This document shows positions 29,751 to 41,790 of a DNA stretch of 64,000 nucleotides, piece after piece. The stretch comes from Micromonosporaceae bacterium KJ-029 (GTDB lineage Bacteria > Actinomycetota > Actinomycetes > Mycobacteriales > Micromonosporaceae), in the NCBI GenBank assembly GCA_005402585.1, contig BIFP01000008.1, forward strand, positions 620,001 to 684,000, written 5' to 3'. The notes below the pieces were generated by a model. That model ran no database searches and was not told the origin of the DNA. It was given only the letters and a program-made list of their open reading frames with translations. Each line of letters opens with the position of its first letter. Position 1 is the first letter of the stretch. The translations under genes and the position numbers were made by a program.

Positions 29751-31127
29751 TCAGCGTGCCCGCTGGTTGGCGCGCAGGGCGCCCAGGATCACGCCGGGGG
29801 TGGCCAGTGAACTCGGGTGCTTCCGCATGGAGACGACGTCGTTGAACCGTCGGGCCGTCGTCACGTCCGTGATGGTCGCCGTGACGATCTGCCGGCTGAC
29901 CCAACTGGAGAACCGGTAGCCGCGCGGGTAGGGCCCGTCAACGTGCGGCAACGCCAGGTCCGCGGAGGTCGACGTCGACCAGGCGGCGTCCACCACCACC
30001 CGTTGCAGGGCGAGGAAGTGGCGCGCGGGCCGGGACAGGTCCGGCTTCGACCGCAGGTACGTCGACAGGCAGGCCGCCTGCAGCGCCGCCGCCGTGATCC
30101 CCTGCCCGTACACCGGGTTGAACGACGCGACCGCGTCACCGACGCTGACCAGCCCGGCCGGAAACCGCGTCAGCGCGTGGAAGTCCCGGCGCCGACTGTC
30201 GGCATGGTGGTAGGTCTGTACGTCGCCGAGCATCTCGCTGCCGGCAACCTCGCCGAACTCCGGCGGGAACTGGTCCCGCAGCCGGCGGACGAAGTCCTCG
30301 CCGGTACGCCCCGGGTGGTTGTCCCCGTAGCCGGCCATCATTGCCATCCATCGGCCGTCCTCGACGGCGAAGAAGGCGGCACCGGCCACCTCCGACGACG
30401 TCTGCGGACTGTGCAGGGCCAGCACCACCGTCAGCTCCGGGTCCGGCTCCCGCCGCCGGAACAGGGCCGTGGCGTAGTTGAGATGCACGGTCATCCGCCG
30501 CATGGCGGGCCGATCCCAGCCGGCCTGCTCCAGCCAGTCGGAGAGCCGGCTGGAACGGCCCATGGCGTCCACCACGAGATCGGCGCTCTCGACGCCGGGC
30601 GCGCCGCCCACGTCGTAGCGGACCCCGGTGGTGACGGCACCGTCGAACACCAGACCCGTGGCGCGGGCAGTGACCGTCTTGACGTTGGGCAGCCGGAGCA
30701 CCTGCTCGCGGATCAACCCTTCCAGCAGGGGTCGGCTGCCCGCCAGGCTGTCGGCGTCGTCGGGCACGACGACCTTCAGCCGACCGTCGAAGTAGTGCCG
30801 CCGGGCCGCGGGTGGAGCCTCGACGGCACCATGGGTCACCGCCTGGTCCCGGAATCCCGGGAACATCTGCTCTAGCTGGAGGAAGCCGCCGGGCAACAGC
30901 GCGTGCAGTTGCGTGCCCTGTGGCACGCCGGGCCGCCCGCCGGTCAGGTGCAGGTCGTCCCGGTCGATGACGACGACGCTCTCCGCGAAGTCGGCCAACA
31001 CCCGGGCTGCCAACAGTCCGGCGATGCTGCCGCCGACCACGACGGCCTTGTCCATGACCGGGGACGCCTGGTCGGACGGTCGCACCGCGTTCAGCGCGGC
31101 GAAGACCCGAGCCGGAGAGAGGGACAT
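29751..31127 (-). CDS. FAD-dependent monooxygenase/oxidoreductase
   Basis: A 458-residue flavoprotein. VVVGGSIAGLLAARVLAD (30-47) is the dinucleotide-binding motif, VVVIDRDDL the end of the second strand, and VSVGDAVASFNPVYGQGI the GD motif that touches the FAD ribityl chain and pyrophosphate. The order is that of PHBH-like group A monooxygenases and related halogenase-type proteins, but no halogenase motif is present. ATG 31127 follows GGAGAG; an internal ATG at residue 25 would also keep the motif. Substrate unknown; it may hydroxylate an aromatic or a secondary metabolite. No operon partner. Confidence 0.85.
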   Translation of the reverse strand: MSLSPARVFAALNAVRPSDQASPVMDKAVVVGGSIAGLLAARVLADFAESVVVIDRDDLHLTGGRPGVPQGTQLHALLPGGFLQLEQMFPGFRDQAVTHGAVEAPPAARRHYFDGRLKVVVPDDADSLAGSRPLLEGLIREQVLRLPNVKTVTARATGLVFDGAVTTGVRYDVGGAPGVESADLVVDAMGRSSRLSDWLEQAGWDRPAMRRMTVHLNYATALFRRREPDPELTVVLALHSPQTSSEVAGAAFFAVEDGRWMAMMAGYGDNHPGRTGEDFVRRLRDQFPPEFGEVAGSEMLGDVQTYHHADSRRRDFHALTRFPAGLVSVGDAVASFNPVYGQGITAAALQAACLSTYLRSKPDLSRPARHFLALQRVVVDAAWSTSTSADLALPHVDGPYPRGYRFSSWVSRQIVTATITDVTTARRFNDVVSMRKHPSSLATPGVILGALRANQRAR

Positions 31128-31298
31128 CGTGCTCTCCAAGGGGTGAAAGGTGTGGCGTCTTCCGGCCGCGACCACGACGCGGTAGGCCGGCGGACCGGGA
31201 TCGTCGGCATGACGCACGACGATCCTTGCACAAGCGCCGACCGCCGCCCCGGACTCGCACGCAGGATCGTCACCCCGAGTCGCCTATTGGTCACAGCC

Positions 31299-32223: not shown

Positions 32224-32282
32224 CCCTCGCAATCCCCCGATCAGATCGAAGGAGGTTACAGACGCGAGCGGCACGAAAGGGC

Positions 32283-33533
32283 TCAGCGATCGACGGGAGC
32301 GGACCCGATGCCGACCACCCGTGCCCACTCGGGCGGCGAGTCCGGCACGTAGTCGGGATCGTCCTCGTCCCACCGGGTGGCACGGGGAAACAACCCCACC
32401 ACCGTCCGGCAGGGCGGTCGCGAGATCGGCCACGGCGTCTGCCCGTCGGTCAGCACGACGATGACATCCGGGCCCGGTCTGTCCCGCAGCGCCCGAGCGA
32501 AACCCGCGCGTAGATCCGTACCCCCACCACCCACCAGCGGGATGTCCTGGGCCCGGCACAGCGGGCCCACGGCGCGGGCCGCCGCGTCGCACGGCAGCAC
32601 TCTGACCAGGTCACGTCGGCCGCCCACGGCCCGAGAGATCGCGGCGACCTCGAGCAGCGCGCTGCCCAGTTCGGCATCGCTGACCGAACCGGATGTGTCG
32701 ATGATGACGCAGACCCGTGGCGGCTGGCGCCGCAGCGCCGGCAGGACGACGCCGGGTACACCGGCGGAGCGCCGCGACGGCCGGCCGTAGGTGTAGTCCT
32801 CGCCCACGCCGGGCGCGGAAACCGCCGAGCGGAGCGCCGCCCCCAGGAGTTCCCGCCACGGCTGCGGTGGATGGAACGCCTGTTCCGCCCACCGCCGCCA
32901 ACCCTGGGGTACGTGGCCCGGTCGGCCGGTGATGCCCTCCGCCACCCGGAACCGCACCGCGTCCCGTTCCTGTGGGCTGAGGGCGTGCGCCCCGTACGGG
33001 CCGAGGTCCCACTCCCGGTCCAGCCCGTCGGCGCCGCTGCCGCAGTCCAGCCAGGCCAGGTGCTGGGTACGCGGCCCGAGCCGGAACTGGCGCAGGTAGT
33101 CCTCCATCAGCTGTCCCTCGGGCAGCTGCAGCGAGCCGGGCTCGACGACGCCTGCGGGCCGGGCCAGCCCGTCGCCGAAGACATCGTCGTTGATCTCGCA
33201 GTCCGCGGCGATGTTCATCCGCAGCCGCTCCCCCGGCCCGGACAGCCCGTGTTCCCGCGCGGCCCGGTCGCTGCGCCCGTGGTGGTCCCGGAGCAGGTGC
33301 GAGACCTCGTGCACCCACACTCCGGCGAGTTCCTCCACCGGGGTCCGGTCCACGAACACGGGCGAGACGTAGCACCGCCAGTACCGGTCCACACCCATCG
33401 TCGGCACCCGACGGGACTCGACCACGTGCAGGGCGAACAACGCCGTGGCCAGGTAGGGACGGACCCGGGCGGCGTGCAGCCGGGCGGTGAAGAGCTTGTC
33501 CCGGTCCAGCGTCCCGGCGCGGTCGGTGGTCAT
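32283..33533 (-). CDS. VWA-like protein with HExxH metallopeptidase domain (MoxR partner)
   Basis: A 416-residue protein. The N-terminal half has a zincin-like motif, VWVHEVSHLLRDHH (HEVSH at 75-79), as in the DUF2201 putative metallopeptidase domain. The C-terminal half is a von Willebrand A-like domain with an intact MIDAS start, DTSGS, and GGGGTDLRAGF as the following metal-loop threonine. Such proteins work with MoxR ATPases, which remodel or load them. Its ATG overlaps the stop of the MoxR gene by four bases, and the two proteins are probably made in fixed ratio. Substrates are unknown. Confidence 0.88.
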   Translation of the reverse strand: MTTDRAGTLDRDKLFTARLHAARVRPYLATALFALHVVESRRVPTMGVDRYWRCYVSPVFVDRTPVEELAGVWVHEVSHLLRDHHGRSDRAAREHGLSGPGERLRMNIAADCEINDDVFGDGLARPAGVVEPGSLQLPEGQLMEDYLRQFRLGPRTQHLAWLDCGSGADGLDREWDLGPYGAHALSPQERDAVRFRVAEGITGRPGHVPQGWRRWAEQAFHPPQPWRELLGAALRSAVSAPGVGEDYTYGRPSRRSAGVPGVVLPALRRQPPRVCVIIDTSGSVSDAELGSALLEVAAISRAVGGRRDLVRVLPCDAAARAVGPLCRAQDIPLVGGGGTDLRAGFARALRDRPGPDVIVVLTDGQTPWPISRPPCRTVVGLFPRATRWDEDDPDYVPDSPPEWARVVGIGSAPVDR

Positions 33534-34768
33534 CGGCCCACTGAGGCCGCGACCCGGGCCGCCGTCCGATCAGCCCGCCCGGACAGCGACACCACGCCGG
33601 CGAGCCTCTCGATCGACGCGGGCACGTCCCAGTCCTCGCGCCGCAGCCGGGCGAGAGTGGACGCGGGGACGACCACCAGGTCCGGGGCACCCGTCTCCAG
33701 CGCCAGGACCAGCAGCGTCCAGGCCGCGTCCCAGCGGGACCGATCCGGGCGTACGCGCACCGCTTCCACCACCCCGTCCAGCACGATCTGGCGTAGGTCG
33801 CCCCGTTCGGGCAGGACGGCGGAGGCCGGATCGGCCAGCAACACCTCCGGGTCGGGAAGGTCCATCCGGTCCAGGCTGGCCAGCAGTTCCAGCCCCGGGC
33901 CGTCGCCCACAGTGCCTCTGACCAGCATCGACAGGACCTCCCTAGAGGTGTCGGCCGCGGTCGCGAAGGCGATCAGACGCAACGTCATCTCCCAGCTCCG
34001 CGGCGACGGCCACGGCCCGCCCCGGCCCGCCTCACCGGTGGGCAGCCGGTGCACGAGCCCCGGGCGGGCGGACAGGAGTCCACACACCGCACGACGGGCA
34101 AAGGTCACGGCCTCCGACAGCCGTTGCGGGTCCAGCCGGGGCAGCACCGCCCGAGGCCAGGTCCCACCCAGGCCGCGTACGACAACCTCGTGGTCATGGG
34201 TCCACTGGAGGTGGACGAAGCGGTTCGCCAACGGCGGGCTCAACTCCCAGCCGTCGGCCGCCGAGGAGCGCGGATTGGCGGCAGCCACGATCCGGACCTC
34301 GGCCGGCAGGCGCAAACTGCCGATCCGCCGCTCGAGCACGAGGCGGAGCAGGGCGGCCTGCACAGCAGGCGGGGCGGTCGACAATTCGTCCAGGAACAGC
34401 AGTCCGCGACCGGCGCGTACCAGACGCACCGCCCAGTCCGGCGGCGCCATCGGAACGCCCTGGACGGCCGGGTCGTCGCCGACGACCGGCAGTCCGGAGA
34501 AGTCGGACGGCTCGTGGACGCTGGCGATCACCGTCGTGAGCGGCAGGTCCAGGGAGGCGGCGAGCTGCGTCAGCGCGGCGGTCTTGCCGATTCCCGGCTC
34601 ACCCCAGAGCAGCACCGGCAGGTCGGCAGCCACGGCCAGGTTCAGTGCCTCCAATTGAGGGTTGGCGCGGGCCTCGGTGGTGGTGTCGCACAGCAACGCG
34701 AGCAGGTCGGCGGCGACGTCGAGTTGCGGAAGCGGAGTCGAGTCGATCGAGATACGGGTCGAGAGCAT
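33530..34768 (-). CDS. MoxR-family AAA+ ATPase
   Basis: A 412-residue ATPase. Walker A is GEPGIGKT (56-63), Walker B GLLFLDELST (about 138-147), and sensor 1 lies in RIVAAANPRSSA. The region after Walker A (VIASVHEPSDFSGLPVV) is typical of MoxR/RavA-like proteins. A C-terminal helical lid follows. MoxR ATPases act as chaperones that activate VWA-domain partners, here the downstream overlapping gene. An uncharacterised gene precedes it by 73 bp on the same strand, giving a conserved-looking three-gene unit. Confidence 0.9.
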   Translation of the reverse strand: MLSTRISIDSTPLPQLDVAADLLALLCDTTTEARANPQLEALNLAVAADLPVLLWGEPGIGKTAALTQLAASLDLPLTTVIASVHEPSDFSGLPVVGDDPAVQGVPMAPPDWAVRLVRAGRGLLFLDELSTAPPAVQAALLRLVLERRIGSLRLPAEVRIVAAANPRSSAADGWELSPPLANRFVHLQWTHDHEVVVRGLGGTWPRAVLPRLDPQRLSEAVTFARRAVCGLLSARPGLVHRLPTGEAGRGGPWPSPRSWEMTLRLIAFATAADTSREVLSMLVRGTVGDGPGLELLASLDRMDLPDPEVLLADPASAVLPERGDLRQIVLDGVVEAVRVRPDRSRWDAAWTLLVLALETGAPDLVVVPASTLARLRREDWDVPASIERLAGVVSLSGRADRTAARVAASVGR

Positions 34769-34841
34769 GTGAGATCACCTGGGAAGTCGTGGTGGGCCGG
34801 CCTGAGGCCGGGAGAGCCGAAATTTAAGGAGGTCCCGCTGA

Positions 34842-36242
34842 TCAGCGGGCGATTGCCTGGCGGGGGTGGGAGCGGCGGTCACGCTTGGGCCGCTGGTCGA
34901 GGAGGGAGGCGGGTGGTCCGTGTCCGGTCAGCCGGGCCCGAAACATTCCGTACGCGATCCGCCGCAACGCGGCGTTCTCCAGTTCCTCCCGTAGATTCCC
35001 GTCGCGTAGAAGCGCATCGGGTCCGAGCAGGGCCTCGACGGCGGCCAGTGCGCCGGTGGTGTCCCCGTGGTCCAGACGGGCACGGATGTCGGGGAGGCAC
35101 TCCGGACGGCGATGTGCATCGTCGATCGCCCGCAGGCAGGGAAGCGGGGTACCGGTCAGTGCGGCCAGTAGTTCCTCCCGGCGGATCTCCGCCGGGTCGT
35201 GGTCCAGGGCGGCGAGCACTCCGTCCACCAGGCCGATCCGGTGCCAGACTCCACGGCAGGCCACGAGCCGTGGCGTTTGCGTCGGGTCCGGGGCCGCCAG
35301 GTTGGCTGCCAACGGGTGACCGGGTGCGAGCGCCGACGCCACCAGCGGATGAAGCCGGTCGACCGTGATCAGCCCGTGGCGCAGCAGATCCAGGTCGGGT
35401 GTCGTCCAGGTTGCCGCGTCGGGCAGCACCGGCAGCGCCGCGACACGACCCGCCCGCGACGCCCGGTCGATCCGCGCCTCGGGCGGCCGAAGGTCCGTCC
35501 CGGCCGAAGCGACGTCGAGGACCAGCCGACGTCGAGGCCCGAGCCGCACCGCCACCACACCGCTGGCGCGGCCTTCGGCCTGGAGCAGCAACGTCGCCTC
35601 GGCCGCCCACCGGTGCACCGCGTAACCGCGTTCCTCCAGTGCGCCCCAGCGTGGGTCTGGCGGCACCCCGGCAACGCCGTCACCGGACGGTTGCTCCGCG
35701 CCGGACCGGCTCCGCAGCTCGTCGGCCCTGCGGGCGTCCCAGAGGTGACGGTGCAGGTCGAGGCGGAATCGGCGGTCGGGACGGGGATGTGGATGAGCGC
35801 CGCTGGTCTCGTCGAAGGATCCGGCCCACAGTGCCAGGCTGATCCGCTGCCCCGCGTCCGCCCAGGCCGGTGGCGTTCGGGCCACGAGGTGCAGCGGCTC
35901 GGTACCGTCGTGTTCCGCCCCGCCGTACCGGGCCAGTGAGACGGTCAGTCCCGGACGCAACAGACCGTCCGGGCCGATCCTCGGCATGTGCCAGCGCAGC
36001 AGGTCGGGCGCGAGGTGCCGGAGATCTGCCCGGAGCAGGGCGGCCAGTTCCCGGCCGTGGTGGCGAGCCACGGTGCGCAGGTCCAGGTCGGCGTCGACGC
36101 GAGCGGCGGCGCACGCGCCGGCCCAGTCACCGACACGACGACGAACGGTCGCAGCTTTGATCATCGAGCGCGGCACGGCGTACTCACGCACGCGCCGCCA
36201 GAGGAAGAGGCGGGATTCCGCATTCGCGGCCGGGGAGCGCAT
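34842..36242 (-). CDS. Uncharacterised actinobacterial protein of the MoxR/VWA triad
   Basis: A 466-residue protein with no catalytic motif I recognise. It begins LWRRVREYAVP..MIKAATVRRRVGDWAGACAAARVDADLDL, a helical, Arg-rich segment that also occurs next to MoxR/VWA pairs in other actinomycetes, as far as I recall. The middle is beta-rich (RRFRLDLHRHLWDAR, VVAVRLGPRRRLVLDV); the end is helical with an Arg/Lys/His tail. ATG 36242 follows GGGTGAG; a GTG at 36248 is possible. As first gene of the unit it may be the substrate, adaptor or sensor for the ATPase/VWA machine. Confidence 0.78.
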   Translation of the reverse strand: MRSPAANAESRLFLWRRVREYAVPRSMIKAATVRRRVGDWAGACAAARVDADLDLRTVARHHGRELAALLRADLRHLAPDLLRWHMPRIGPDGLLRPGLTVSLARYGGAEHDGTEPLHLVARTPPAWADAGQRISLALWAGSFDETSGAHPHPRPDRRFRLDLHRHLWDARRADELRSRSGAEQPSGDGVAGVPPDPRWGALEERGYAVHRWAAEATLLLQAEGRASGVVAVRLGPRRRLVLDVASAGTDLRPPEARIDRASRAGRVAALPVLPDAATWTTPDLDLLRHGLITVDRLHPLVASALAPGHPLAANLAAPDPTQTPRLVACRGVWHRIGLVDGVLAALDHDPAEIRREELLAALTGTPLPCLRAIDDAHRRPECLPDIRARLDHGDTTGALAAVEALLGPDALLRDGNLREELENAALRRIAYGMFRARLTGHGPPASLLDQRPKRDRRSHPRQAIAR

Positions 36243-36416
36243 CAGCACTCACCCTGTGCGAATCGGACCCCCAATCTGAGAGAAAGATTCATCGCGGCGG
36301 AGCCTAGCGGCTCGCCACGAACTCCGCCAGGGCTGATTCTTCGTCGTTTGTGGTGGCACGGACAGCGCAGCTCGTCCTCATGAGCAATCCCGTGGTAGAC
36401 ACCCACCGCCTCACTC

Positions 36417-36447
36417 GCCGACATCACCCGGTCCGGGTGATGTCGGC
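36417..36447. promoter_or_regulatory. 31-bp near-perfect palindrome between divergent operons
   Basis: GCCGACATCACCCGG (36417-36431), one central T, then the exact complement (36433-36447). It lies in the 258-bp region between the MoxR triad (minus) and the SCP2/glycosidase genes (plus), 53 bp before the latter. With only one central base it suits a dimeric repressor or a cruciform better than an RNA hairpin, although a terminator cannot be excluded. Confidence 0.65.
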
Positions 36448-36866: not shown

Positions 36867-38960
36867 GTGAGTCGGAGTCTGGTCAGCATCATGGACGGCA
36901 ACACGTACCTCCTGAGCAACGACCGCGGCGACATCTCCGCCGCCGCCGGCCCGCAGACGGGGCTGTACTCCTTCGACACCCGGCATCTGAACCAGTGGCA
37001 CCTGAGCCTCAACGGAGAGCGCCTGAACACCCTCGCGGTGGACGACCTGAACCACTTCGAGACGCGCTTCTTCCTGGTGCCGGGGGCGGCGACCCACTAC
37101 GTGGACGCGACGGTGTCGGTGATCCGGCACCGCTGGGTGGGTGCCAGCTTCAACGAGGAGCTGACCCTGTTCAACCACGGCATGTCGCCGGCTCCGATCA
37201 CGGTCAGGATGGACATCAGCAGCGACTTCGCCGACACGGTCGAACTACGCCAGGGCAGCAGCGGGCCACGGAAGGGCCGCACCTGTGTCCGGGTCGAGGA
37301 CGGTTGCCTGCGGCTCACCTACGAGCGGGAGTCGTTCGTCCGGGAGACGATCGTGTCGTCGTCCGAGCCGGCGTTGGTGGACGAGCGGGGCATGACGTTC
37401 GAGGCGGCCATCGGGCCGCACGGCAGTTGGCAGACCACGTTGCACGTGGAAACCGTGCTGCGCGGCGCCCGGGGCCGGGACGTTCGGGCGAACCTCGCCG
37501 CCCACCGTGGCCGGCAACGGCCGGAGATGCGCCAGGAGCACGACGAGTGGCTCAAGTCGGCGCCGTCGCTACGCGCCGAATCGCCCTCGCTGACCGCCAC
37601 CTACCAACGCAGCCTGACCGACCTGGGCGCACTGCGCTACTCCTCGTGGACCTATCCGGAGCGGCTGCCCATGGCCGGAATGCCCTGGTACATGACCATG
37701 ATCGCCCGGGACGCGCTCATCACCTGCCTACAGGCCATCTCGTTCACCCCGCAGCTCAGCGTGCCCACGCTGCGATTGTGCGCCGCCGGGCACGGCACCG
37801 TGTCGGACGACTTCCGGGAAGAGGAACCGGGCAAGGTCTTCTACGAGGTCCGGTACGGCGAGAGCGGGGCGTTCGAGGACCTGCCACAGGCCGCGGACTT
37901 CAGCGCGGCCGACACCACCCCGCTGTTCGTAGTCCTGCTCGACGAGTACGAGCGGTGGACCGGCGACCAGAGCCTGGTACGGGAACTGGAGTACGAGACG
38001 CGCAAGGCCCTGGACTGGATCGACCAGTATGCCGACCTGACCGGCCGGGGATACGTGTCGTACCAGCGGCGCAACCAACGAACCGGCCGCCTCAACCAGG
38101 GCTGGAAGAACACGCCGGACGCCATCTCGTACCGCGACGGGCGGCTGCCCGGCTACCCTCTCGCCACCTGCGAGCTGCAGGGCTACGCGTACGACGCGAA
38201 GCTGCGAGGTGCCCGGCTGGCTCGACTGGTCTGGGGCGACCCGGCGTACGCCGACCGCCTGGAACGGGAGGCCGCGGAGCTGAAGGACCGGTTCAACCGG
38301 GACTTCTGGATCGCCGACCGCGGTTACTACGCGGTCGCGGTCGAGGCCGACGGCGCCCAGGTGGACGCGCTCACCTCCAACATCGGCCACCTGTTGTGGA
38401 GCGGGATCGCCACGGAGGACAAGGCCGCCCAGGTGGTCGAGCACCTGATGAGCGACCAGATGTACACGGGCTGGGGAATACGCACCCTGGCCACCGACAA
38501 CCACCGTTACAACCCGATCGGCATCCACACCGGCATGGTGTGGCCGTTCGACAACGCGCTGACCGCCTACGGCCTACGCCGGTACGGCTACGACCAGGAG
38601 GCGGCCCGGGTCGCCGAGGGACTCCTGGCGGCGGCGAGCCGCCTGGACGGACGGCTGCCGGGCGCCTTCGCCGGATACGCCTGCGACCAGACGAAGTACC
38701 CGGTCACCGAGCCGGGCATGGGCTCACCGCAGGCCCTCTCGGCCGCGGCCCCGCTGATGTTGCTCCGCACCCTGCTCGGCCTGGAACCCTGCGAAGGGCG
38801 CCTGACGGTGCAACCGGCGGTCCCGGAGAAGATCGGCCTTGTCGAACTGCTCGACGTCCCGGGTCCCTGGGGACGGCTGGACGCCGCCGCCGCCCGCGGC
38901 CGACTGCCGGCGTCCGTCCGACCGGAACATCAGGCGGCCCTGCAGATCCTGCCCAGATGA
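36867..38960 (+). CDS. Glycogen-debranching-type glycosidase (GDE N-terminal domain + (alpha/alpha)6 barrel), copy 1
   Basis: A 697-residue enzyme of the amylo-alpha-1,6-glucosidase-like family. Residues about 1-220 are the GDE N-terminal beta domain (TGLYSFDTRHLNQWHLSLNG). The rest is an (alpha/alpha)6 barrel with PWYMTMIARDALITCLQ, GTVSDDFREEEPGKVFYEVR, NQGWKNTPDAI and GIHTGMVWPFDNAL, where acidic residues near REEEPGK and the late EPGMGSPQALSA region are candidate catalytic groups. It should cleave alpha-glucosidic bonds in an intracellular glucan or related sugar. The start is GTG 36867 behind GGAGG (36854-36858). A paralogue follows at 39622. Confidence 0.88.
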   Translation: MSRSLVSIMDGNTYLLSNDRGDISAAAGPQTGLYSFDTRHLNQWHLSLNGERLNTLAVDDLNHFETRFFLVPGAATHYVDATVSVIRHRWVGASFNEELTLFNHGMSPAPITVRMDISSDFADTVELRQGSSGPRKGRTCVRVEDGCLRLTYERESFVRETIVSSSEPALVDERGMTFEAAIGPHGSWQTTLHVETVLRGARGRDVRANLAAHRGRQRPEMRQEHDEWLKSAPSLRAESPSLTATYQRSLTDLGALRYSSWTYPERLPMAGMPWYMTMIARDALITCLQAISFTPQLSVPTLRLCAAGHGTVSDDFREEEPGKVFYEVRYGESGAFEDLPQAADFSAADTTPLFVVLLDEYERWTGDQSLVRELEYETRKALDWIDQYADLTGRGYVSYQRRNQRTGRLNQGWKNTPDAISYRDGRLPGYPLATCELQGYAYDAKLRGARLARLVWGDPAYADRLEREAAELKDRFNRDFWIADRGYYAVAVEADGAQVDALTSNIGHLLWSGIATEDKAAQVVEHLMSDQMYTGWGIRTLATDNHRYNPIGIHTGMVWPFDNALTAYGLRRYGYDQEAARVAEGLLAAASRLDGRLPGAFAGYACDQTKYPVTEPGMGSPQALSAAAPLMLLRTLLGLEPCEGRLTVQPAVPEKIGLVELLDVPGPWGRLDAAAARGRLPASVRPEHQAALQILPR

Positions 38961-39490: not shown

Positions 39491-39621
39491 TCCGCTACGA
39501 GAGGCGAGCCCGCCGGCCCACAGGTGTATCGCCGGCGCGACCGGGTACGAACCGCTGACCGCTGCGTCCGCGGGCGGTACCCGATCGGCGCGTGGGGCAC
39601 ACCGCAGGTCAGGGGGTTCGC

Positions 39622-41790
39622 ATGAGCCGCGTGCGGAATCTGCGTGTCCGCCCGGACCTGCTCTACGTGGCGAGCGGCTGGAGCACGCTGGTCACCGACG
39701 TTCGCGGTCGCATCACCGGCGCCGACCCGCAGGGCTTCTTCGCGCGCAACACCCGGGTGCTCAGCACCGAACGGATCACCATCAACGGCCGCGAGCCGGT
39801 GCCGTTCAGCACGGCGACCGTGCAGGGGCACGCCCAACTGTCGTACGCCGAACTCGGCGACGGTGCGAAACTGCCCTCCCGCGCGGCGTACCTGCTGGTG
39901 GAGCGCTTCGTCGGCGCGGGCCTGCGGACCAGGCTGACCGTGGTCAGCTACGCCGACGAGCGGCTGGACCTGCGACTGCGGATCCACCTCGCCGCCGACT
40001 TCGCCGACACGGGCGAGGCCGAGACCGGCCGCCGCATCCAGTCCGGCCCGGTCGATGCCCGGTGGGATCCCACGGACCAGGAACTACGCCTGACGTACCG
40101 GTGCGACGGGCTGGACCGGGCGGTGGCGATCCAGATCCGGGCCGACGAACCGGTCCGGTACGCCGACGGCGAGTTCGCCGTCGACATCACGGTGCGGCCC
40201 CGGGAACGCAGCCGGGTGGAACTCACCGTCGAGCCCGTCTTCGACGGCCAGCGCCTCGCCGCGCCGCCGCCGAACTTCACCGAACCCGACGACGCCGCCA
40301 GTTCGGCACGGGCCCGACTCGGCCGCGAGTTCACCCGGCTGACCAGCTCCAACTTCGACGTCACGGCGGCCTGGCGGTGCGCCCGGGAGGACCTGTCCGG
40401 GCTGCCCCTCGGCGAACCGGCCGGACCGGCCGCACCGATCGCCGGCCTGCCGATCTACCAGGAGATCTTCGGTCGGGACACGATGACCGCATCGTGGCAG
40501 GCCCTGCTCGCCGGGCCGACGATGCTCGCGGACAGCCTCCGGCTGAACGCCCGTTACCTCGGCCGGCGGGTCGACGACTGGCACGACGAGGAGCCCGGCA
40601 AGCCACTGCACGAGGCGCGCCAGGGGCCGGTGTCGGCGCTCGGCATCGATCCGCTAGCCCACTACTACGGCGACTGGTCGACCGCGCCGGACTTCCTGGT
40701 CTACCTCGGCCAGTACTACGCCTGGACGGCGGATCTCGACACGGTCCGCGAGTTGCTGCCGGCGGCACGCCGCGCCCTGGCCTGGATCGACCGGTACGGC
40801 GATGTCGACCACGACGGTTTCCTCGAGTACCACTGCCGTTCCCGGGGAGGTGTGAAGAACCAGGGCTGGAAGGACTCCGACGACGCCGTCGTCGACGAAC
40901 ACGGTCGGATCGTGCCGAATCCGATCGCGACCAGCGAGTTGCAGGCGTACTGGTACGCCGCCCTGCGGCACGCCGCAGTGGCCTTCACGGTGGCCGGTCA
41001 TCCCGCGTTCGGTCTCGGCCTGGTCCGCAAGGCGGCCGCCCTGCGGCGCCGCTTCCACGGTGCCTTCTGGATGCCTGACCAGGGCTGCTACGCCATGGCA
41101 CTCGACCCGGACAAGCGGCAGGTCCGCTCGGTCAACTCCAACGACGGTCACCTGCTGGCCACCGGGATCGTGCCGGCCCGGATCGCGCCCCTGGTCGCCG
41201 ATCGGCTGCTGGCGCCCGACATGTTCAGCGGCTGGGGCATTCGCACGCTCTCCTCCGCCCACCCGTCGTACAACCCCTTCAGCTACCACCGGGGCAGCGT
41301 CTGGCCGGTCGAGGCGGGCACCATCGGCGTCGGGCTAGCCCGCTACGGCCGCTGGGAGCACCTGCACCGGCTGGCCGAGGGGGCGTTCGCGGCCTCGGCG
41401 CTGTTCGCGGAACACCGCCTACCGGAGGTGCTCAGCGGCCTGCCCCGCGACGACGTACATCCCCACCCCGGCGTCTACCCGAACTCCTGTTCCCCGCAGG
41501 CGTGGTCGGCCAGTTCGGTCGTCATACTGATCCAGGCGCTGCTGGCGCTGCGTCCCGCCGCATCACTGCGGACGATCTTCATCGACCCGCACCTGCCGGA
41601 GTGGCTGCCCGACCTGAGGCTGGAAGGCGTGCAGGTCGGTGACCGCACCGTCGACCTCACCGTCCGACGTCGACGGGGCGGGCGGACGTCCGTACGCACC
41701 AGCGGCGACCGGATCGCCGTGATCCGCCGACCCACCGTCCAGGCCATCTCGACCCGCCGCCACCAGGCAGGACCAGGCGGCCCCTTCTAA
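39622..41790 (+). CDS. Glycogen-debranching-type glycosidase, copy 2
   Basis: A 722-residue paralogue of the enzyme at 36867. It has the GDE N-terminal domain (DVRGRITGADPQGFFARNTRVLSTERITING) and the barrel with IYQEIFGRDTMTASWQAL, DWHDEEPGKPLHEARQG, NQGWKDSDDAVVDEHG and YHRGSVWPVEAG. The DEEPGK and WPxE-like sites match positions seen in copy 1 and probably form the active site. Sequence identity between the copies is modest, so this is an old duplication with separate roles. ATG 39622 follows AGGGGG (39611-39616). A hairpin follows the stop. Confidence 0.88.
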   Translation: MSRVRNLRVRPDLLYVASGWSTLVTDVRGRITGADPQGFFARNTRVLSTERITINGREPVPFSTATVQGHAQLSYAELGDGAKLPSRAAYLLVERFVGAGLRTRLTVVSYADERLDLRLRIHLAADFADTGEAETGRRIQSGPVDARWDPTDQELRLTYRCDGLDRAVAIQIRADEPVRYADGEFAVDITVRPRERSRVELTVEPVFDGQRLAAPPPNFTEPDDAASSARARLGREFTRLTSSNFDVTAAWRCAREDLSGLPLGEPAGPAAPIAGLPIYQEIFGRDTMTASWQALLAGPTMLADSLRLNARYLGRRVDDWHDEEPGKPLHEARQGPVSALGIDPLAHYYGDWSTAPDFLVYLGQYYAWTADLDTVRELLPAARRALAWIDRYGDVDHDGFLEYHCRSRGGVKNQGWKDSDDAVVDEHGRIVPNPIATSELQAYWYAALRHAAVAFTVAGHPAFGLGLVRKAAALRRRFHGAFWMPDQGCYAMALDPDKRQVRSVNSNDGHLLATGIVPARIAPLVADRLLAPDMFSGWGIRTLSSAHPSYNPFSYHRGSVWPVEAGTIGVGLARYGRWEHLHRLAEGAFAASALFAEHRLPEVLSGLPRDDVHPHPGVYPNSCSPQAWSASSVVILIQALLALRPAASLRTIFIDPHLPEWLPDLRLEGVQVGDRTVDLTVRRRRGGRTSVRTSGDRIAVIRRPTVQAISTRRHQAGPGGPF

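Follow-up and report, generated by a model that had tools for sequence, protein, structure and literature searches.

The 64,000-nt window of Micromonosporaceae bacterium KJ-029 analysed here contains, on its minus strand, three genes that form a real, dedicated unit, which is widespread in actinomycetes and is headed by a conserved leader element. The first encodes a 466-aa protein (gene 1), the second a MoxR-type AAA+ ATPase (gene 2) and the third a protein combining a metallopeptidase motif with a VWA domain (gene 3). MoxR/VWA pairs are widespread, mostly without known targets, and the pair encoded here is of a known kind; what is new to the sources searched is, most of all, the leader, and besides it the ankyrin-related third component. 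A third obligate partner of a MoxR/VWA pair is hereby defined, its kinship to ankyrin proteins is traced and a sister operon of the LRR-ANK type is described. We propose, with a probability of roughly one half, that the unit specifies an adaptor-guided, ATP-driven protein-remodelling module of an ATPase and a metallopeptidase, placed under translational control. In this model, (i) the promoter would start transcription of the operon at the start codon of the very short leader ORF, (ii) ribosomes finishing the leader may re-initiate at the overlapping ATG of gene 1, so that the leader would set or sense translation of the unit, (iii) the AAA+ ATPase ring would be assisted by the VWA protein in the role of co-chaperone, as its family and the NorQ/NorD precedent (PMC13036017) suggest, (iv) the gene 1 product, as the third obligate part, would select or hold the target and (v) the putative zinc-binding metallopeptidase domain of the VWA protein would cut the remodelled target or load it with metal.

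Table 1. Features of the three-gene unit and of the region preceding it (window positions).
Feature	Position	Strand	Description
-35-like hexamer CTGGCG	36325..36330	minus	18 nt ahead of the -10 box; weak alone (3/6 matches)
-10 box TAGGCT (TANNNT)	36301..36306	minus	8 nt ahead of the leader ATG
Leader ORF	36242..36292	minus	16 codons, MNLSLRLGVRFAQGEC*; probably leaderless; TGA shares a base with the gene 1 ATG (TGATG)
Nucleotide-conserved core	36240..36277	minus	AGATTGGGGGTCC...GGTGAGTGCTGATG; contains the Shine-Dalgarno sequence of gene 1
Gene 1	34842..36242	minus	466 aa, ATG at 36242; ANK-repeat-related family, proposed target adaptor
Gene 2	33530..34768	minus	MoxR-type AAA+ ATPase, 412 aa; Walker A GEPGIGKT (56-63), Walker B LLFLDE (123-128)
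Gene 3	32283..33533	minus	416 aa; putative N-terminal zinc metallopeptidase (HEVSH 75-79, H84, D111) fused to a VWA domain
VWA domain of gene 3			MIDAS intact: DTSGS 279-283, T339, D363

A preliminary description of this DNA had recognised three neighbouring minus-strand genes, a four-base overlap between those of the ATPase and the VWA protein, the HEVSH motif of the latter and an uncharacterised 466-residue protein. All of these features were recovered (Table 1): genes 2 and 3 overlap as ATGA (33530-33533), and searches of Pfam, PADLOC and NCBIfam gave no match for the gene 1 product. The span then given for the unit, 32283-36242, is right for the three genes and falls short of the full extent, because the leader ORF and promoter, which it overlooked, also belong to the unit; the conserved minus-strand unit thus runs from 32283 to about 36330. 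The narrower range singled out at that time, 34842-36242, is a real ORF that covers gene 1 only, with the rest of the unit lying outside it.

The linkage of the three genes was examined in the best 80 loci of at least 435 relatives obtained in a GTDB scan. These originate from Micromonospora, Salinispora, Plantactinospora, Streptomyces, Kitasatospora, Embleya, Nocardia, Amycolatopsis, Allokutzneria, Nonomuraea and other genera; by its nearest named relatives, the KJ-029 genome itself belongs in or near Micromonospora. The order and strand of all three genes are the same in 75 of the 80 loci, the other five running off the end of a contig, and no fourth conserved neighbour was found, the next-commonest one occurring in 8/80 loci. 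Among 395 genomes of the class, 45 carry relatives of gene 1, and these also contain the VWA gene (45/45) and the ATPase gene (44/45). A VWA match was obtained in 13 further genomes of this set, in distant forms only (at most 50% identity); the cases that were opened mostly contain an ATPase-VWA pair with no recognised third gene. Among 61 relatives, gene 1 is present in 10 genomes, gene 3 in the same 10 and gene 2 in 9, the tenth being a fragmented assembly. Nine plasmids bear gene 1, and all nine also have gene 3. The dedicated unit that had been suggested, with constant co-occurrence named beforehand as its test, is thus seen in the 80 loci, the 395 genomes and the plasmids. Homologues of gene 1 occurring mostly apart from the pair, the outcome that would have spoken against it, were not found; the exceptions are two ankyrin-bearing homologues, one standing alone (L031) and one with no pair adjacent (L142). 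Two copies of unit genes, a gene 1 with an in-frame TAA (G131:C22:136028-137638) and an ATPase gene in two frames (G147:C1:3671812-3672995), look broken or mis-assembled.

The sequence immediately preceding gene 1 is strongly conserved. In an alignment of 73 loci, conservation is near-perfect over the last 36-38 positions upstream of the gene, and the core contains 24 invariant columns in 62 sequences. The leader ORF is present in all 73 inspected loci, with its stop at the same place; it comprises 16-19 codons, mostly 18, and its TGA stop and the gene 1 ATG overlap. The 3′ part of the core, the 14-mer GGTGAG[TC]GCTGATG, was found in 79 of the 80 loci and in 8/8 loci from the nearest relatives, and it also precedes the shortened gene 1 of L154 and one plasmid copy. 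One more copy of the 14-mer, without the rest of the element, is located elsewhere in the KJ-029 genome (C34). A longer leader pattern occurs at least 26 times in the 395 genomes, always directly before gene 1, with no occurrence of a reversed-pattern control; this count is a lower bound because the pattern was one base off register, and copies with several differences would escape it. The leader element is absent before the LRR-ANK-AAA-VWA operons described below.

The type of constraint acting on the leader can be judged from its codon positions. When the Shine-Dalgarno codons are set aside, positions 1, 2 and 3 have entropies of 0.25, 0.67 and 0.24 bits, respectively; the values for a conserved part of gene 1 are 0.58, 0.59 and 1.00 bits. 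The third positions of the leader are therefore steadier than the second ones, the opposite of protein-coding constraint; judged by these alignments, the leader is conserved as bases and not as a peptide, which makes it probably a control element. The presence of the ORF with the same stop in 73/73 loci, and of a Cys before that stop in 68/73, could also be explained by a functional micropeptide with a conserved GEC tail. We regard this explanation as very unlikely, since the second positions vary (L/S/M/W/T, V/D/A) at otherwise conserved codons and the relation between second- and third-position entropy is the reverse of that in gene 1.

Every one of the 73 loci has a TANNNT sequence 7-10 nt upstream of the leader ATG, compared with 0.8% in control windows; a CTGRCR-like hexamer usually precedes it by 17-18 nt. 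If the spacing between this -10 box and the start point is normal, the transcript is expected to start at the leader ATG or right beside it; it is probable that the leader ORF is leaderless, with the transcript starting at its ATG. A sigma-70 scan reported no promoter because the -35 hexamer is weak, and the promoter emerged from the comparison of loci, CTGGCG being the best -35 candidate at the preferred spacing of 17-18 nt.

An Rfam search over the leader gave chance matches only. The consensus fold of the leader reaches -2.9 kcal/mol, with one pair changed on both sides and no real covariation, and single leaders fold no better than shuffled sequence. A hairpin hiding the Shine-Dalgarno sequence, suggested by individual Streptomyces sequences, was dropped for these reasons. 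With no stable fold and no covariation, a classical attenuator is thus unsupported. The leader may instead be a binding site for a protein or a small RNA, or a sequence controlling the passage of ribosomes. Leaderless or regulatory upstream ORFs of such a general kind have been reported in mycobacteria and E. coli (PMC11260477, PMC4965119, PMC12121999), and translational control is therefore favoured for the leader. A more specific version of this idea, speculative and on the whole improbable, is that the leader constitutes a new type of translation sensor, i.e. a leaderless ORF at the 5′ end whose bases would gate re-initiation at gene 1 according to the state of the ribosome. If so, a chaperone-protease module would be switched, e.g. 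under ribosome-targeting antibiotics released by neighbouring actinomycetes. A linear 38-base element that is almost unchanged across several actinomycete orders, and steadier than the genes behind it, is unusual, and it offers a direct genetic handle on when the system switches on.

The preliminary assignment of genes 2 and 3 to a MoxR ATPase and a VWA-like protein with a metallopeptidase motif agrees with their Pfam matches. Gene 2 matches AAA_5 (1.9e-9, 38.1 bits; cut-off 22) and is borderline for the MoxR model AAA_3 (PF07726), with 26.0 bits in hmmscan and 28.2 bits in a six-frame search against a cut-off of 27. Its Walker B motif LLFLDE and the motifs AAANP and NRF are present without exception in 79 sequences, and the Walker A motif GxPGxGK[TS] nearly so. 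Gene 3 matches DUF2201_N (PF13203; 1.1e-23, 84.6 bits, cut-off 23.2) and DUF2201 (PF09967; 1.8e-14, 54.3 bits, cut-off 26.4). No account of the function of DUF2201 was found in the open literature. In the structure model, the VWA part of gene 3 resembles CMG2 (Z 10.8, rmsd 2.8 over 119 residues), and the MIDAS residues D279, S281, S283, T339 and D363 show no variation in 53 sequences with identities as low as 27%.

In the same 53 sequences, the residues H75, H79, H84, N107 and D111 of the putative metallopeptidase domain are also invariant; either H84 or D111 could serve as the third metal ligand. A Foldseek comparison of the model with zincins produced weak matches to the mini-zincins selecase and jannalysin (E 0.2-0.4). 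The HExxH motif is present in 51 of the 53 proteins. The remaining two, of the related loci L152 and L153, have HLTSH with the other metal-site residues kept, and they likely represent a pseudo-peptidase branch. The metal-site residues are thus better conserved than the catalytic Glu, and cleavage may therefore not be the conserved output of the system.

Gene 1 is the fastest-evolving of the three (typical identity to the window protein about 64%, compared with about 80% for gene 3 and about 85% for gene 2). Relatives within its family carry ankyrin repeats at the C-terminus: one congener encodes two distant relatives (31-35% identical) that run on into such repeats. The alignment of gene 1 with these ANK proteins extends as far as the onset of the repeats, so gene 1 is most simply an ANK-family protein minus the repeats; that it lost them, rather than that the relatives gained them, is our guess. 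Shortened variants of 171 aa (L154), 306 aa (L179) and 343 aa (L152) keep only the region around residues 325-379, which is therefore likely to be the functional core. An AlphaFold model built from 65 sequences (pLDDT 75.5, pTM 0.74) found no relative by structure (best E 1.6 in the PDB, nothing in BFVD, best Z 3.6 with a second aligner), and a search of PDB sequences with the gene 1 profile gave no match. These missing matches do not establish a new fold. We propose that gene 1 encodes an adaptor by which the target is chosen or held; its homology to ankyrin proteins is observed, and the predicted role follows from ancestry and evolutionary rate only, because the fold search gave no relative.

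The nearest systems of known function lead to another reading of the module. To our knowledge, the VWA proteins of NorQ/NorD and RavA/ViaA are not of the DUF2201 type and have no HExxH domain, and both systems differ from the present unit in having no counterpart of gene 1. They likewise consist of a MoxR-type ATPase and a VWA co-chaperone encoded by adjacent genes (PMC13036017, PMC9976466), and the proteins matched by gene 2 in sequence include NorQ (3.9e-5). MoxR/VWA pairs whose job is known mostly perform metal or cofactor insertion or remodelling (PMC13036017, PMC9976466). The unit could accordingly be an insertion chaperone like NorQ/NorD or CbbQ/CbbO, with gene 1 encoding the client enzyme, instead of an adaptor, into which the pair loads metal or which it remodels, and the zincin-like domain carrying the metal instead of cutting. 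The invariance of the metal-site residues even in the proteins that lack the catalytic Glu would fit such a role, as would the fact that gene 1 never occurs without the pair inside its own clade. A client enzyme is, however, difficult to reconcile with a gene 1 product in which Pfam, PADLOC and NCBIfam recognise no enzyme domain, with relatives ending in ankyrin repeats, which are a binding module, and with forms as short as 171 aa that keep just the 325-379 core. We consider this reading doubtful, though not negligible.

The unit also has a sister system. The LRR-ANK-AAA-VWA operon (L030, L140-L151), which includes a gene 1 relative of one congener and is found in about eleven other actinomycete loci, shares the gene order of the unit; its ANK proteins are 31-39% identical overall to gene 1, its ATPases about 60% and its VWA proteins about 50% identical to their counterparts. 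It differs in the extra LRR gene, the ankyrin repeats, the presence of one to three ANK copies and the lack of the leader. These operons (L140, L142, L146-L151) and the solitary ANK gene (L031, 2027) mostly start less than about 200 bases downstream of a same-strand tRNA gene (Arg, Asp, Cys, SeC and others); no tRNA was found next to the start of the three-gene unit in 46 loci scanned. At L141 (1978-7757), three consecutive ANK-family genes precede the ATPase and VWA genes, a local expansion of the proposed adaptor.

A pair with the same two-protein composition as genes 2 and 3 has been described in group 2.2 jumbo phages, in which a MoxR AAA+ protein and a vWA protein with an N-terminal metallopeptidase were proposed to act in virion assembly (PMC7824862). 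The leader is not described there. Distant relatives of gene 3 occur in 123 phage records (24-30% identity among the matches listed), whereas no relative of gene 1 was found in 50,697 phage records. In Synechococcus phage MinM2 (L161, 2680-7137), genes for a MoxR ATPase, a DUF3150 protein and a DUF2201 VWA protein lie in one run. Plasmids of Mycolicibacterium and Rhodococcus (L159, L160) carry a conserved block of mostly overlapping genes for an AAA ATPase, a VWA-like protein (38-40% identical to gene 3), a small ORF, a hypothetical protein of about 400 aa and a second AAA ATPase.

Gene 1 is distributed patchily, being present in about a quarter of 37 congeneric genomes, and the flanks of the unit vary between genomes within the genus. 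The flanking DNA that is syntenic with the closest relative (about 88-90% identity) ends at window position 32242 and resumes at 36418; the extra segment therefore comprises the operon and little else. An empty site could not be joined, as the two flanks lie on different contigs of the draft genome, and the two breakpoints alone could be placed. A tree of the concatenated genes 2 and 3 nevertheless follows the genera (13 genus changes, with a minimum of 12), on which ground a wide horizontal spread between genera was rejected. Taken with the differing sites, this tree suggests that the unit moves and is lost inside genera, and it lends no support to frequent transfer from one genus to another.

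These data also bear on the suggestion in the preliminary description that the unit takes part in biological conflict, i.e. that it is an anti-phage or other conflict system with gene 1 as sensor or effector. The patchy occurrence at different sites, the plasmid copies and the jumbo-phage pair (PMC7824862) would suit such a role, and other MoxR-vWA systems have been proposed as conflict systems (PMC7159879). The ternary ones among them, of the VMAP, iSTAND, FtsH and beta-propeller types (PMC7159879), likewise combine an ATPase, a VWA protein and a third obligate protein and are frequent in actinomycetes. However, they possess hypervariable effector modules, and no recurrent or variable effector gene was found in the 80 loci. 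The beta-propeller type requires bpMoxR (PF20030), for which gene 2 scores 17.0 bits, below the cut-off of 27, and gene 1 is unlike the third components of the VMAP, iSTAND and FtsH types as far as these are covered by Pfam, which may not hold all of them. PADLOC models match neither gene 1 nor gene 3, and gene 2 only partially as a generic AAA protein. Defence matches are no more numerous among 100 direct neighbours than among 100 genes further out, and the idea of a defence island was therefore dropped; the genes nearby are a mixture of metabolic and regulatory ones. As for phages, the link extends to distant relatives of gene 3 only. Together with the tree that follows the genera, these results do not bear out a conflict role, which we judge distinctly unlikely.

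Some other features of the window lie beside the unit. An ARAGORN tRNA-Trp call on the minus strand (30508-30582) falls inside a same-strand ORF (29751-31217) and is probably false. Two tandem paralogous glycogen-debranching-like genes (36867-38960 and 39592-41790) are separated by a short glyoxalase-like ORF, and several more copies of this gene family are present in congeners.
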